Assembly (NCBI GenBank): GCA_016840945.1 | Contig: JAEORJ010000064.1 | Coordinates: 1 to 32,054, forward strand | Direction of reading: 5' to 3' | Length of the DNA stretch: 32,054 nucleotides | Origin: Candidatus Gerdarchaeota archaeon | GTDB taxonomy: Archaea > Asgardarchaeota > Heimdallarchaeia > JABLTI01 | Part shown: in pieces, positions 3,245 through 5,851 of the stretch | Numbering within the stretch: the stretch's first letter is position 1 | Layout of the letters: each line of letters starts with the position of its first letter | The notes under the pieces: model-generated | The model's database searches: none | The model's input: the letters and a program-made list of their open reading frames with translations, nothing else | Told to the model about the DNA's origin: nothing | Made by a program: the position numbers and the translations under genes

Positions 3245-3693
3245 GATAATTCCTCCAAAGTTCTTTTTGTCGAACATTCAATAATTTTTGGGATTGTTTC
3301 ATTACAATGACATTTCTCAGGATTCTTTAATGCTTTGTTTATCTTATCAATTAAGCTACAAGAGATAACACTTGAAATTCGTTGGCTTTCCTCTTTTGCT
3401 TCTTCATGTGATAATCCGAGAACCTCCATTAAGAACATTACAACTAGATGATAGTGTCTCAAATTATGAGCAGCTAATTGCCTTCCTTTATCAGTTAATC
3501 TAATAGGACCATACTTTTCCCATTCAACCAATTCATCCTCCACCAAGCGTTGGATGATAGAGTTTATAGAAGAATGAGGGATATTGGTACCATCTTTTTT
3601 CAATTCATTTCGCAAATCACCTATTCTAATAGGTCTTAACCAATGATAGAGGAACCCTAGCATCTTTTCTTCCAAATCAATCCTTCTTTTCAT
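3241..3693 (-). CDS. DtxR/MntR-family winged-helix metalloregulator, metal site altered
   Basis: A 150-residue protein with an N-terminal winged helix (residues about 1-70) and a C-terminal helical dimerisation half containing HNLRHYHLVVMFLMEVLGL, the usual DtxR-type helix, and ending NPEKCHCNETIP, matching the family NP-x-x-C-P-x-G-x-PIP region. It would bind metal and repress the transporter operon. Compared from memory with MntR/DtxR, the C/E-x-x-E-H metal motif of the helix before 'IS' reads SQRISS, so most usual ligands are missing. The extra CHC and ECS cysteines might substitute. It sits inside the operon it probably controls, overlapping both neighbours by ATGA, and has an ideal AAGGAGGT ribosome site. 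The likely operators are the dyads at 4747-4764 and 4787-4801. Confidence 0.85.
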   Translation of the reverse strand: MKRRIDLEEKMLGFLYHWLRPIRIGDLRNELKKDGTNIPHSSINSIIQRLVEDELVEWEKYGPIRLTDKGRQLAAHNLRHYHLVVMFLMEVLGLSHEEAKEESQRISSVISCSLIDKINKALKNPEKCHCNETIPKIIECSTKRTLEELS

Positions 3694-4730
3694 ACAAAAA
3701 CCTCCTTAAGCGATTTTGAACGCTTAGCTCTAATGATCACAATAGTAAGAACTAAAGCTATCAATGATCCTCCTGCAATTCCAAGCAAAAACCATGTTGA
3801 CCAGTGGAAAATATTCGTTGGGGGATCAAAAGGATGTGTTAATGCTAATATATCATAATCAATCATTGAGATATAAGTACTTAAATTAAAAACACCCAAT
3901 AATGGGGTTAATTCAACAATCTGTATGTGTGTATCTCTTGCTATTTGGTTAACAACATTTTCATTCAACTGTGGTTGATTAACAATCAAACTGACATTTT
4001 CTTGTTGGATATCAATTATCAATTCCTGTATATGTTCTGGTGATGGTTCTACACCATCTTGTGTTTCAATAGCACCAATACGTACTATTCCTAAGAGATC
4101 AAATAAATACTTGAATGATGGGTGATGAACAACAACTTTTGTCCCACTATAAATTGTTTTAGCAGCAGCTATTCGATTTAGCAATAAATCTAAATCATTA
4201 AGATATTGTTCTTTATTTTCAGAATATGTAATGATATTAATTGGATCCAATAGTGCTACTCTTTGATAAATCTGGTTTACCATTGTTTTTACATTATTAG
4301 GGTCCATCCAAACATGTGGATTGTTTGCTCCAATTATATCATCATAAACAATCATTGATTCATTCACTAATTCTAAAACATTTAAGCCAGGATTTACATC
4401 AATTACAGATTGCACCCAAGGTTCAAGTCCTTCTAGACCGAACCTTATAAATAAATCAGCTTGAGCAACCATCTCAATTTCAGATGGTGTAGGTTCATAT
4501 ACATGAGGATTTTCATTTCCTGTTACAATGCTTTCAGCGACATATAATCCAGATCCAATTTGATTAGCAAAATCAGCAACAATAGATAATGATGTAACAA
4601 CATTTACCGAATTGTTAATTACAAAGTCCTTGCTTGATAGTTCTTCTGACTTTATCTCTTTTACACTAGTAACTGATAGCTGTGTTATTATAAGAATTAT
4701 TAGCATCAATGATAATGTTAATTTTTTCAA
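3690..4730 (-). CDS. znuA: Metal ABC transporter substrate-binding protein (ZnuA/TroA family), membrane anchored
   Basis: Extracellular metal-binding lipo/anchored protein of the cluster 9 family. I place the start at TTG 4730 (346 residues) rather than the open frame from 4805. The TTG has GAGGT 8 bases upstream, opens a good signal peptide (KKLTLSLMLIILIITQLS), and lies about 30 bases after the predicted transcription start. Expected metal ligands are visible: NPHVYEP, NNPHVWMDP and VVHHPSF histidines, and a C-terminal acidic residue region. There is no His-rich loop, so zinc or manganese are both possible. The C terminus has a single membrane helix (WFLLGIAGGSLIALVLTIVII) followed by RAKRSK, an anchor seen in some archaeal binding proteins. 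Its TGA overlaps the regulator's ATG. Confidence 0.9.
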   Translation of the reverse strand: MKKLTLSLMLIILIITQLSVTSVKEIKSEELSSKDFVINNSVNVVTSLSIVADFANQIGSGLYVAESIVTGNENPHVYEPTPSEIEMVAQADLFIRFGLEGLEPWVQSVIDVNPGLNVLELVNESMIVYDDIIGANNPHVWMDPNNVKTMVNQIYQRVALLDPINIITYSENKEQYLNDLDLLLNRIAAAKTIYSGTKVVVHHPSFKYLFDLLGIVRIGAIETQDGVEPSPEHIQELIIDIQQENVSLIVNQPQLNENVVNQIARDTHIQIVELTPLLGVFNLSTYISMIDYDILALTHPFDPPTNIFHWSTWFLLGIAGGSLIALVLTIVIIRAKRSKSLKEVFV

Positions 4731-4746
4731 GTAATCTGACCTCAAT

Positions 4747-4764
4747 TTTACGAATATTCGTAAA
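4747..4764. promoter_or_regulatory. Perfect 18-bp dyad over the metal operon transcription start (probable regulator operator)
   Basis: TTTACGAATATTCGTAAA is its own reverse complement over all 18 bases. It lies about 25 bases downstream of the TATA-like CTTATAAG at 4783-4790, so a bound protein would cover the transcription start. Perfect dyads of this size are typical of DtxR/MntR-type operators, and a regulator of that family is the second gene of the operon. Autoregulation is inferred. Confidence 0.75.
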
Positions 4765-4782
4765 GTTATACCGCTATACGAA

Positions 4783-4801
4783 CTTATAAGCATTATGCTT
4801 A
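4783..4801 (-). promoter_or_regulatory. Metal operon promoter: TATA-like box with overlapping 15-bp dyad
   Basis: On the minus strand CTTATAAG (4790-4783) is a good archaeal TATA element, placing the start near 4760. The 15-base dyad TAAGCATTATGCTTA (4787-4801, 7-bp arms, 1-base centre) overlaps the TATA and the BRE position. Its sequence differs from the 18-bp dyad, so it may bind a second factor. Confidence 0.55.
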
Positions 4802-4840
4802 ACAAAAGAACTGATTTGAATTGAAAGTTATAAAGGGATT

Positions 4841-4845
4841 AAAAA
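4841..4845 (-). terminator. T-tract terminator of the permuted 5S transcript
   Basis: Ten bases after the trailer strand, the minus strand reads TTATTTTTAAT, with five consecutive T. Archaeal RNA polymerase stops at such tracts without needing a hairpin. It separates the 5S unit from the metal operon promoter at 4783-4801. Confidence 0.5.
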
Positions 4846-4854
4846 TAAGGGGAG

Positions 4855-5010
4855 CACAAAACTCACCATTTCCGGGATCGGACGAGTCCGGGTGTTACCC
4901 TTCAGCTTTGACCGCGTCGCAACGCAGCTTTACGATTTTCCCGAACGATCTCTCAGATCAGTAATCATCATAACGTTTGAAGGCTTAACTTCCGGTGATG
5001 AGTTTTTGCG
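4855..5010 (-). ncRNA. Pre-5S leader/trailer pairing with bulge-helix-bulge splice motif
   Basis: The leader AAAACTCATCA (5006-4996) pairs with the trailer TGGTGAGTTTT (4868-4858) over 11 bp, with one G-U pair. A bulged A then allows CGC/GTG to extend the stem to 5010/4855. Inside this stem comes a 3-nt bulge AAA (4871-4869) on the trailer side, a 4-bp helix CCGG (4995-4992) with CCGG (4875-4872), and a 3-nt bulge AAG (4991-4989) on the leader side. This is the BHB spacing recognised by archaeal splicing endonuclease. The inner third helix is not formed, so it is a relaxed form. Predicted cuts are 4990/4989 and 4870/4869, releasing the 120-nt exon as a circle and joining leader to trailer. 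Confidence 0.8.
4870..4989 (-). rRNA. rrf: 5S rRNA, circularly permuted gene (3' half precedes 5' half); predicted 120-nt circular RNA
   Basis: Read on the minus strand, 4989-4922 is the 3' half of 5S: GTTAAGCC, helix V (TTATGAT/ATCGTAA), loop E and the helix IV hairpin GATCT-GAG-AGATC, TTCGGGAA, and the 3' strand of helix I (GCTGCGT, 4928-4922). TGCG (4921-4918) follows, then 4917-4870 is the 5' half: helix I 5' strand ACGCGGT, CAAAGCTGAAGG (helix II, pairing TGAAGG with CCTTCA), GGTAACACCCGG, the helix III loop ACTCGTCCGATC, and CCCGGAA. Joining 4870 to 4989 restores CCCGGAAGTTAAGCC, the most conserved stretch of 5S, and helix III (CCGG/CCGG plus AAC/GTT around the two bulged adenines). The circle is 120 nt, the normal 5S size. 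The region is GC-richer than its surroundings, as expected for stable RNA. No standard-order 5S is in the window. Confidence 0.9.
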
Positions 5011-5033
5011 TAATTCTTTCGTTTAATCATTTG

Positions 5034-5041
5034 CTTTTAAA
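5034..5041 (-). promoter_or_regulatory. TATA-like box of the permuted 5S gene
   Basis: TTTAAAAG on the minus strand, preceded by a BRE-like GCAAAC. A start 24-28 bases downstream would fall near 5012, just before the leader strand of the splice stem, giving a leader of about 20 nt. The position fits the RNA boundaries, which supports the call. Confidence 0.5.
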
Positions 5042-5046
5042 GTTTG

Positions 5047-5067
5047 CCGTTTTTATGGTAAAAACGG
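5047..5067. repeat. Perfect 9-bp inverted repeat upstream of the 5S promoter
   Basis: CCGTTTTTA and TAAAAACGG are exact reverse complements separated by 3 bases. It lies directly upstream of the TATA-like box of the 5S gene, so it may be an activator site or a backup transcript end for the tusA operon (the minus strand also has five T here). The role is not readable. Confidence 0.55.
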
Positions 5068-5148: not shown

Positions 5149-5182
5149 AAAAAAAGGAAAAAAGGACAGTTTTAAGTCTGTC
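5149..5182 (-). terminator. Terminator of the DsrE2-TusA operon
   Basis: On the minus strand GACAG (5182-5178) and CTGTC (5169-5165) form a 5-bp hairpin overlapping the tusA stop codon. Two T tracts of six and seven bases follow (5163-5158 and 5155-5149). The hairpin is short, but the T tracts alone suffice for archaeal termination. Confidence 0.6.
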
Positions 5183-5414
5183 TTTTAATAAAATATCTAG
5201 CATAATCTTCTTCGTCAACAATGGCGAGGAGTTCGTTGCCAGTTCGTGACGCCCATCGTGGAAAATCTTCTTTTGATCCAGGATCATTTGATAGAACTTC
5301 TAACACTTGTCCGATTTCAATTTCCTTGAGTTCTTTCTTTGCTTTCAAAATTGGTAGTGGACATTGCATTCCACGAGCGTCAACCGTTTTATTAGGAGTT
5401 GGTGTATCTGCCAT
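5172..5414 (-). CDS. tusA: TusA/SirA-family sulfur carrier protein
   Basis: An 80-residue sulfur carrier with the full family length. The active-site motif is MQCPLPILK (Cys at residue 18 in the C-P-x-P motif), which carries a persulfide passed between sulfurtransferases. The second half (GQVLEVLSNDPGSKEDFPRWASRTGNELL) matches the usual D-P-x-x-x-x-D-x-x-x-W pattern. It starts 23 bases after the DsrE2-like gene, so the two are probably co-transcribed. The neighbouring divergent DsrE-F-H genes are the known partners of TusA in sulfur relay (tRNA thiolation or sulfur metabolism). No DsrAB, Hdr or rhodanese gene is in the window, so the pathway cannot be assigned further. Confidence 0.92.
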   Translation of the reverse strand: MADTPTPNKTVDARGMQCPLPILKAKKELKEIEIGQVLEVLSNDPGSKEDFPRWASRTGNELLAIVDEEDYARYFIKRQT

Positions 5415-5437: not shown

Positions 5438-5851
5438 TTATATGAACAGTTGTATATCACAATCTGCAGCAATATCTAGAAAGCCTGCTGCACCCATATA
5501 GCCTGTGACTTCGGGAATTAAATCTTCTTTCTTCACATTCATTAATTCCATTGTAGCTGTACAAGCGTATAATTTAATGTTTTCTGTTTCCAAAGCCATC
5601 TTTAATAGATCAGGTAAGGAAGCTATACCAACTTGTTTAATTTTATTTTTCATCATGCCAGTACCAATTCTCATTATGCCTGGTAATTTAGCTTTATTCA
5701 AACCATTCTTCTTTAAGAGTGATAGACCCCAGAATGTGAAGAATAAATAAACTTCCATATCAGATGCACCAGCAGCTGAAGCTAGCATAAGTGGAGGGTA
5801 TGCTTTATCTAGTGTACCAGAATGTACAACAATAGCCATTTTCTTTGTCAT
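5438..5851 (-). CDS. DsrE2-like (DsrE/F peroxiredoxin-like) sulfurtransferase subunit
   Basis: A 137-residue protein of the DsrE2 type (COG2210-like): KKMAIVVHSGTLDKAYPPLMLASAAGASDMEVYLFFTFWGLSLLKK is the characteristic start. IKLYACTATMELMNVKKEDLI carries the conserved reactive Cys after a beta strand. A second Cys occurs near the C terminus (AADCDIQLFI). The stretch with FFTFWG is hydrophobic, as in relatives that may associate with membranes. It heads a two-gene operon with tusA, and DsrE2-TusA pairs are known sulfur-transfer partners. Transcribed divergently from dsrE-F-H across a 158-base intergenic region. Confidence 0.85.
   Translation of the reverse strand: MTKKMAIVVHSGTLDKAYPPLMLASAAGASDMEVYLFFTFWGLSLLKKNGLNKAKLPGIMRIGTGMMKNKIKQVGIASLPDLLKMALETENIKLYACTATMELMNVKKEDLIPEVTGYMGAAGFLDIAADCDIQLFI

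Follow-up and report, generated by a model that had tools for sequence, protein, structure and literature searches.

A circularly permuted 5S rRNA gene in a Gerdarchaeota archaeon, its predicted bulge-helix-bulge ends, and its relatives across Asgard genomes

The stretch of DNA analyzed here, hereafter the window, comprises 32,054 nucleotides of contig JAEORJ010000064.1 from a Candidatus Gerdarchaeota archaeon (assembly GCA_016840945.1). Its minus strand carries a 5S rRNA gene whose halves stand in swapped order: the 3' half comes first (4989..4919), beginning with GTTAAGCC and continuing through helix V, loop E, helix IV, and the 3' strand of helix I, and the 5' half follows (4918..4870), running from GACGCGG to GGGTAACACCCGGACTCGTCCGATCCCGGAA. 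The neighboring genes, all likewise on the minus strand, are a TusA-like gene (5172-5414, assigned by eye), a DsrE-like gene (5438-5851), and a ZnuA-like transporter gene (3690-4805); no 16S or 23S rRNA was found in the window at gathering thresholds. The parts of the locus are as follows.

5036..5045, minus strand: TATA-like core AAACTTTAAA, a probable archaeal promoter; the identical 10-mer is present in 10 of 10 aligned Heimdallarchaeota loci
4996..5006, minus strand: outer helix (11 bp), leader strand AAAACTCATCA; pairs with 4858-4868 in 10 of 10 loci
4992..4995, minus strand: central 4-bp helix, leader strand CCGG; can pair with 4872-4875, and the strands co-vary across Asgard loci
4989..4991, minus strand: 3-nt bulge AA^G, predicted 3' splice site 4990/4989, from the bulge-helix-bulge geometry
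4919..4989, minus strand: 3' half of 5S, positions about 50-120 (sequence read, RF00001 piece, HMM)
4918..4921, minus strand: TGCG tetraloop capping helix I (4922-4928 with 4911-4917), where a normal-order 5S would have its two ends
4870..4918, minus strand: 5' half of 5S, positions 1 to about 49 (sequence read, RF00001 piece, HMM)
4872..4875, minus strand: CCGG with two roles by pairing, as the trailer-side central strand in the precursor and as the 3' strand of helix III once the RNA is mature
4869..4871, minus strand: 3-nt bulge AA^A, predicted 5' splice site 4870/4869, from the bulge-helix-bulge geometry
4858..4868, minus strand: outer helix, trailer strand TGGTGAGTTTT, pairing with the leader strand

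The predicted cut positions follow the archaeal tRNA introns, which are cut after the second base of the bulge. Archaeal transcription starts about 25 nt downstream of the TATA box, and AAACTTTAAA sits 54-57 nt ahead of the first base of the 3' half in all ten aligned loci; a start about 25 nt past the TATA-like box means, therefore, that the transcript would begin just ahead of the outer helix. The distance from TATA box to start is given as 26 nt for the Thermoproteus SRP RNA gene in the available text of its description (PMC4731332). A scan for sigma-70 promoters and terminators was set aside as uninformative, the host being an archaeon.

From its sequence, we regard it as certain that the window gene is a permuted 5S gene. 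An initial annotation, made from the letters alone, had proposed a circularly permuted 5S rRNA gene at 4870..4989 on the minus strand that would give a complete 5S with all five helices in 120 nt once reordered, and both proposals are borne out. A profile HMM of canonical Asgard 5S recognizes the reordered 120 nt as a full 5S, matching over positions 4-116 with 63.3 bits (E 2.6e-19), and the predicted fold of these 120 nt, at -37.0 kcal/mol, contains all five helices; the proposed ends coincide with the predicted splice sites. In native order, the same HMM matches in two pieces, positions 4-50 at bases 74-120 (26.7 bits) and positions 51-116 at bases 1-67 (13.5 bits), and the highest score among 200 letter shuffles is 1.8 bits. 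This HMM was built from 26 of 30 fetched normal-order Asgard loci, leaving out two of bacterial type and two cut by contig ends. A single copy of the gene was also expected to yield only partial 5S matches, as indeed it does: a lax cmscan of 4800-5060 returns two swapped RF00001 pieces. One has model positions 27-51 at 4893-4870 (13.8 bits); the other lies upstream of it on the minus strand and reaches model position 120 at 4919 (13.6 bits). Each falls far short of the gathering score of 38 bits. At gathering thresholds, RF00001 finds no normal-order 5S anywhere in the window. The permuted pattern GGAAGTTAAGC-N71..101-AACACCCGG occurs in none of 100 window shuffles, which excludes a chance origin for it.

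The permuted-order pattern recovers 13 stretches from a genome contig collection (described as 84,980 species). Four are bacterial and unrelated in sequence; the other nine belong to Heimdallarchaeota/Asgard, and all are exactly 106 nt long. TusA-like and DsrE-like genes lie upstream in nine of nine, and the shared span and shared neighbors therefore mark these as orthologous loci in separate assemblies. Downstream, five of the loci (L004, L006, L009, L010, and L011) have the ZnuA-like transporter gene, and none was found in the other four, including L002 with about 2.9 kb of downstream sequence. These relatives bear on the idea that the locus was created by misassembly, or is merely the point where two normal 5S genes in tandem meet. 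Tandem normal 5S genes do exist (three copies about 375 nt apart in genome G087), and some permuted copies lie at contig ends; however, the 106-nt spacing and the two upstream neighbors recur in nine assemblies, the halves are separated by only 4 nt, and the unique leader and trailer pair with each other, so that such an origin is hardly credible.

An alignment of the window locus with its nine relatives spans 156 columns and needs no gaps. Across the five 5S helices and the leader-trailer helix, 98.9% of cells are paired in the ten sequences, a value that none of 500 shuffles reaches, and slid partners pair at only 31-48%. Seven pairs carry changes on both sides (shuffle mean 3.1, with none of 500 shuffles as high): three in the outer leader-trailer helix, two in helix I, and two in helix V. 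One of the five covariation measures, the number of further pair types, shows no excess (17 versus 16.7 in shuffles). All five 5S helices can form in every relative, with 95-100% of cells paired per helix, and the 11 pairs of the outer helix are unbroken in all ten sequences, with both-sided changes in three. Helix I of L010 changes from GU...AC to AC...GU, two compensatory pairs that leave the four-base loop in place. Helix II varies on one side only, and helix IV and the CCGG of helix III are invariant and therefore uninformative on pairing. The earlier claim invited a search of related genomes for a normal-order 5S, and nothing emerged to refute it: RF00001, which detected 5S in 11 of 14 control genomes, finds none in the nine relatives. 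On the basis of these relatives, the permuted gene is very likely the host's sole 5S gene.

At the ends of the window gene, the end of the 5' half can pair as CCGG:CCGG with the bases ahead of the 3' half, a helix flanked by AAA on the trailer strand and AAG on the leader strand, and then by the 11-bp outer helix. The same 4-bp helix with 3-nt bulges, formed from leader and trailer, is present in all nine relatives. The archaeal bulge-helix-bulge is described, in the accessible portions of two papers, as just such a 4-bp helix between two 3-nt bulges (PMC7714728; PMC4731332). The predicted join in the window, CCCGGAA-GTTAAGCC (CCCGGAA-GTTAAG), is the normal 5S helix III sequence. What is new here is that leader and trailer form a bulge-helix-bulge around the ends of a 5S gene.

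We consider it probable that the transcript of this swapped gene, likely the only one, is cut at the bulge-helix-bulge and ligated into a circular 120-nt ribosomal 5S. Transcription would start shortly ahead of the leader, about 25 nt past the TATA-like box. According to the predicted fold, leader and trailer would form the 11-bp helix, and the CCGG strands would form the 4-bp helix with its 3-nt bulges; EndA would then cut both bulges, removing leader and trailer, and RtcB would join ...CCCGGAA to GTTAAGCC..., which gives helix III back its normal sequence. For the circle, the prediction is a complete 5S fold in which helix I is closed by the tetraloop instead of having free ends; such a circle might be expected to bind uL5/uL18 as usual and to replace the normal 5S in the ribosome. 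EndA and RtcB are the likely makers of the circle. The EndA family is present in 26 of 26 genomes hand-picked from 227, and 21 of them have at least two copies, which fits heteromeric, broad-specificity enzymes, as these presumably are; RtcB scores over the cut-off in 206 of 227 Asgard genomes.

The circle could also be an intermediate, reopened at helix I with removal of the tetraloop to give normal 5S ends. Permuted tRNA transcripts are processed in this manner, being circularized and then cleaved to the standard form, as far as the available text of PMC10085705 describes. For the 5S we find this very unlikely: the helix I strands are just 4 nt apart in the window, with no evident space for processing, and the covariation of helix I is that of a capped hairpin.

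Returning to the proposed splice, the motif can be followed well beyond the close relatives. In its strict form (4/4 central pairs plus 7 or more uninterrupted outer pairs), it occurs in 54 of 105 loci, versus 24 of 2100 leader shuffles. In 37 of the 105 loci, no motif was found even when 5 uninterrupted outer pairs sufficed alongside 4/4 central pairs; several of these show 3/4 central pairs or a short outer helix. A scan allowing small shifts (91 of 92 loci) gives 4/4 central pairs in 56; for 35 loci, no more than 2 of 200 leader shuffles match the score, and for 52 loci no more than 10 of 200 do. Central types include CCGG:CCGG, CTGG:CCAG, CCGA:TCGG, CGTG:CACG, CGGG:CCCG, CGAG:CTCG, CCAG:CTGG, and CAAG:CTTG, among others. 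The letters of the central helix thus change between lineages while the pairing stays, though in some loci it does not. When only the outer helix fixes the register, a mean of 3.00 of 4 central pairs form, versus 1.68 for swapped partners, and 9 of 25 distinct central types are fully paired, against 28 of 600 swaps; because only these 9 of 25 are fully paired in that register, the register is not unique. We also considered the leader CCGG as a mere copy of the helix III 3' strand. Duplicate and complement look alike in the window because CCGG is palindromic, and the idea was rejected on the evidence of other clades, which show the complement (CGTG:CACG, CGGG:CCCG, and CGAG:CTCG).

A search that took the motif at any position, required the full 4-pair center, and recognized a normal join by a hand-written pattern allowing small variants was applied to 109 loci. 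In 66 loci the join made by the best candidate restores normal helix III, and in 4 it restores normal loop C; in 25 it does not match normal 5S, and 14 loci have no candidate. Predicted joins that agree with normal 5S elsewhere include CACGGA-AGTTAAG in G174 (L075) and CTCGGAA-GCTAAG in G165 (L041). Nine of the 25 non-normal joins belong to the G016-G038 group (L039, L083, L085, L092-L094, L097, L104, and L105). The best motif in these nine loci lies further upstream, with a TCAG:CTGA center and an 11-bp outer helix, giving a predicted circle of 153-154 nt that carries one more hairpin ahead of GTTAAG; other members of the group give 121 nt and have a weak outer helix.

Within the predicted ensemble of the window, the leader CCGG pairs with the helix III 5' strand with a probability of 0.86 versus 0.14 with its trailer partner, and only in L006 and L013 does the trailer partner draw level or lead. 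The competing leader pairing, with the helix III 5' strand, is better by about 1.1 kcal/mol in the window, for which reason the splicing fold is not the predicted minimum. It is conceivable, on this modeling, that the precursor could switch between the two leader pairings.

A second opening point, in loop C and 16-17 nt earlier, is found in four loci (L252, L253, L254, and L257, of G125, G118, G122, and G099). These genes again show a bulge-helix-bulge, but with 3-4 outer pairs before an interruption; the predicted joins are ACCCGGTC-CCATCCGA in G118, G122, and G125 and ACCCAGAA-ACATTCCG in G099. Two opening points with the same device favor splicing over trimming, and so bear on a further reading, that of a linear permuted 5S whose leader and trailer are trimmed and which works unligated, with a nick in helix III. 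Work by Valach from 2014 reportedly found permuted mitochondrial 5S rRNAs to be expressed, which counts for this reading, as does the fact that ligation here is itself a model prediction. A circularly permuted 5S placed inside 23S rRNA, opened in loop C or D, can also replace the free 5S in E. coli, according to the available text of PMC7283268. Trimming alone, however, needs neither exact 3-nt bulges nor a co-varying 4-bp leader:trailer helix, both of which recur in divergent Asgard clades, and the bulge-helix-bulge appears at two different opening points. We therefore judge the linear form unlikely and retain the spliced circle. Should the splicing step prove true, many Asgard ribosomes would depend on tRNA-splicing enzymes for a core rRNA, and a circular 5S would be tolerated by the ribosome as a natural form.

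Across 227 Asgard genomes, a first model of the permuted form (R1) matches 103 at E<=1e-3, and a broader model (R2), built from 70 diverse matches, matches 150 at the same threshold. The 12 weakest R2 matches (E above 1e-9), all in genomes with normal-order 5S, were dropped, leaving 138 permuted genomes, which rest on model scores; 109 loci, including the window, were read as sequence. The canonical HMM alone finds both pieces in permuted order in 87 of these 109 loci, and in 99 after retraining on its own hits (ten misses). Normal-order RF00001 matches over the cut-off are present in 64 of 227 genomes; both forms occur in 5 and neither in 30, and the permuted and normal forms are thus nearly exclusive in Asgard genomes. 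The normal-order matches in G050 and G110 (bacterial-type 5S by eye) and in G134 (plastid-like 5S by eye) were taken as contamination and rejected as second genes, as was that in G039, which overlaps the permuted gene itself. G022 is the one genuine double, with an independent, archaeal-type, normal-order 5S that appears to bear an intron. Most of the surveyed genomes are drafts, and multi-copy or tandem genes often fall at contig ends in short-read assemblies. Permuted copies lie at contig ends in G039 (C77, C90, C106, and C132), G056 (C28 and C112), G022 (C261), and G013 (C9).

The survey also informs the suggestion that the permuted locus is a pseudogene or decoy, with the real 5S elsewhere. 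A second gene is possible in the source genome, which was searched within the window. Yet none of the nine relatives has another 5S, the sequence is strongly conserved and carries compensatory changes, and three near-single-contig genomes, G058 (3,155,859 bp), G060 (4,943,465 bp), and G174 (1,418,269 bp), carry the permuted gene without any normal-order match over the cut-off; we regard a decoy as exceedingly improbable. A gene with its order swapped would explain why no 5S gene has been found in some genomes of Asgard archaea, which are relatives of eukaryotes, and with a covariance model of the permuted type the rRNA annotation of well over a hundred genomes could be completed. The available text on Heimdallarchaeum endolithica, for example, states that its 5S genes could not be predicted (PMC8813620). 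A 5S gene is reported for Borrarchaeum and Jordarchaeum MAGs, which represent other Asgard lineages, in the portion available of PMC9723677, consistent with a phylum of mixed 5S types. The permuted 5S of Asgard archaea is cellular, widespread, and likely splicing-dependent.

The initial annotation was aware of no described permuted 5S rRNA, and here it must be corrected: the mitochondria of brown algae reportedly already have one, described by Valach in 2014 and represented in Rfam by RF02547. The order is permuted there as in Asgard, but the gene is organellar and of bacterial descent, and we know of no bulge-helix-bulge splicing for it. RF02547 has no match in the window at gathering thresholds, and finds none at E<=1 in 16 hand-picked Asgard genomes, a result to be read with its control detection of merely 1 in 14, below the cut-off.

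A closer parallel is the SRP RNA of Thermoproteus tenax and T. uzoniensis (Plagens 2015, PMC4731332). As far as the available text of that work goes, it too is a universal RNA with swapped halves and lost original ends, has a leader-trailer bulge-helix-bulge and a TATA box with a short leader upstream, and belongs to organisms whose annotation had the normal gene "missing". The cases differ in that the Asgard RNA is ribosomal and found in 138 of 227 genomes, whereas the SRP RNA is described from two species; and circularity and cleavage were measured for T. tenax SRP RNA, whereas for the Asgard 5S they are predicted only (PMC4731332, same portion). Archaeal 23S and 16S pre-rRNAs are circularized at bulge-helix-bulge motifs, as predicted here for 5S, but from the text available become circular or permuted apparently by processing and not by gene order, as is the case in Asgard 5S (PMC7758197; PMC12918454). 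The latter, a 2026 source likewise available in part, states that 16S and 23S, but not 5S, often take this circular route (PMC12918454). The engineered E. coli permuted 5S joins the native ends with a 4-nt connector, comparable to the 4-nt loop in the window; it is artificial, built into 23S rRNA, and opened in loop C or D, in the part of the report available (PMC7283268). Circular RNAs over the 5S genes of Halobacterium and Sulfolobus are circular archaeal 5S molecules as well, but they have variable ends, are proposed to be degradation products, and, on the text available, apparently do not arise from permuted genes (PMC12558985). Judging by titles and the openings of abstracts, and with subscription papers largely outside this scope, no permuted or intron-bearing archaeal 5S gene is described among the open-access papers listed; the exact phrases "permuted 5S" and "circular 5S rRNA" are absent from the open-access literature searched.

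The distribution of the two gene orders was mapped on a tree of 96 of the 227 genomes, hand-chosen to span the 5S types from among those with coordinates in the listed matches, and built from 16 ribosomal-cluster families (2,619 columns) without an outgroup. Its tips comprise 65 permuted, 22 normal, and 9 unknown states. At least 4 changes of 5S state are needed, compared to a minimum of 13 and a mean of 19.7 in 500 label shuffles, and the tree intersperses four clades of normal order with permuted ones. Provided that archaea started from normal order, the fewest changes are achieved by a single permutation close to the base and four later returns. Support for deep nodes is weak, at 0.61 for one large clade of permuted genomes, and with such nodes and an unrooted tree the history may instead have involved several gains. 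Being rare, easily scored, and different between clades, 5S order can therefore inform Asgard phylogeny. We offer as a tentative and somewhat doubtful scenario that most Asgard ribosomes contain a covalently closed 5S made via the tRNA-splicing machinery; that it goes back to one permutation near the Asgard base, from a 5S with a bulge-helix-bulge intron at this site; that there were at least four returns; and that the eukaryotic 5S may descend from a re-linearized gene.

Three loci are of interest with respect to how the forms might be connected. The normal-order, archaeal-type 5S of G022 (L236; C117:8277-8414, minus strand) carries an insertion of roughly 23 nt at the opening site of the permuted genes. 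The insertion forms a bulge-helix-bulge with a CACG:CGTG center and bulges GAA and AAA, and L236 is a candidate both for a 5S intron and for the ancestor of the permuted form. Another normal-order 5S (L238; G212 C15:39893-40044) has an insertion of about 32 nt after GTTAA, possibly another intron, in which no strict bulge-helix-bulge was found by eye. Finally, two permuted 5S genes stand in tandem in G063 (L025; C510:3662-3969), their matched stretches 6 nt apart; this is the only tandem seen, since G039, at first considered another, shows one copy at the contig start of C90. The intron gene L236 and the G063 tandem hint at a route between the forms, in which an intron-bearing gene may have been duplicated and lost its outer halves to give the permuted form, with the reverse giving normal order. 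Across the G063 pair, RF00001 returns a full-length match (1-120) at 31.2 bits, below the cut-off.
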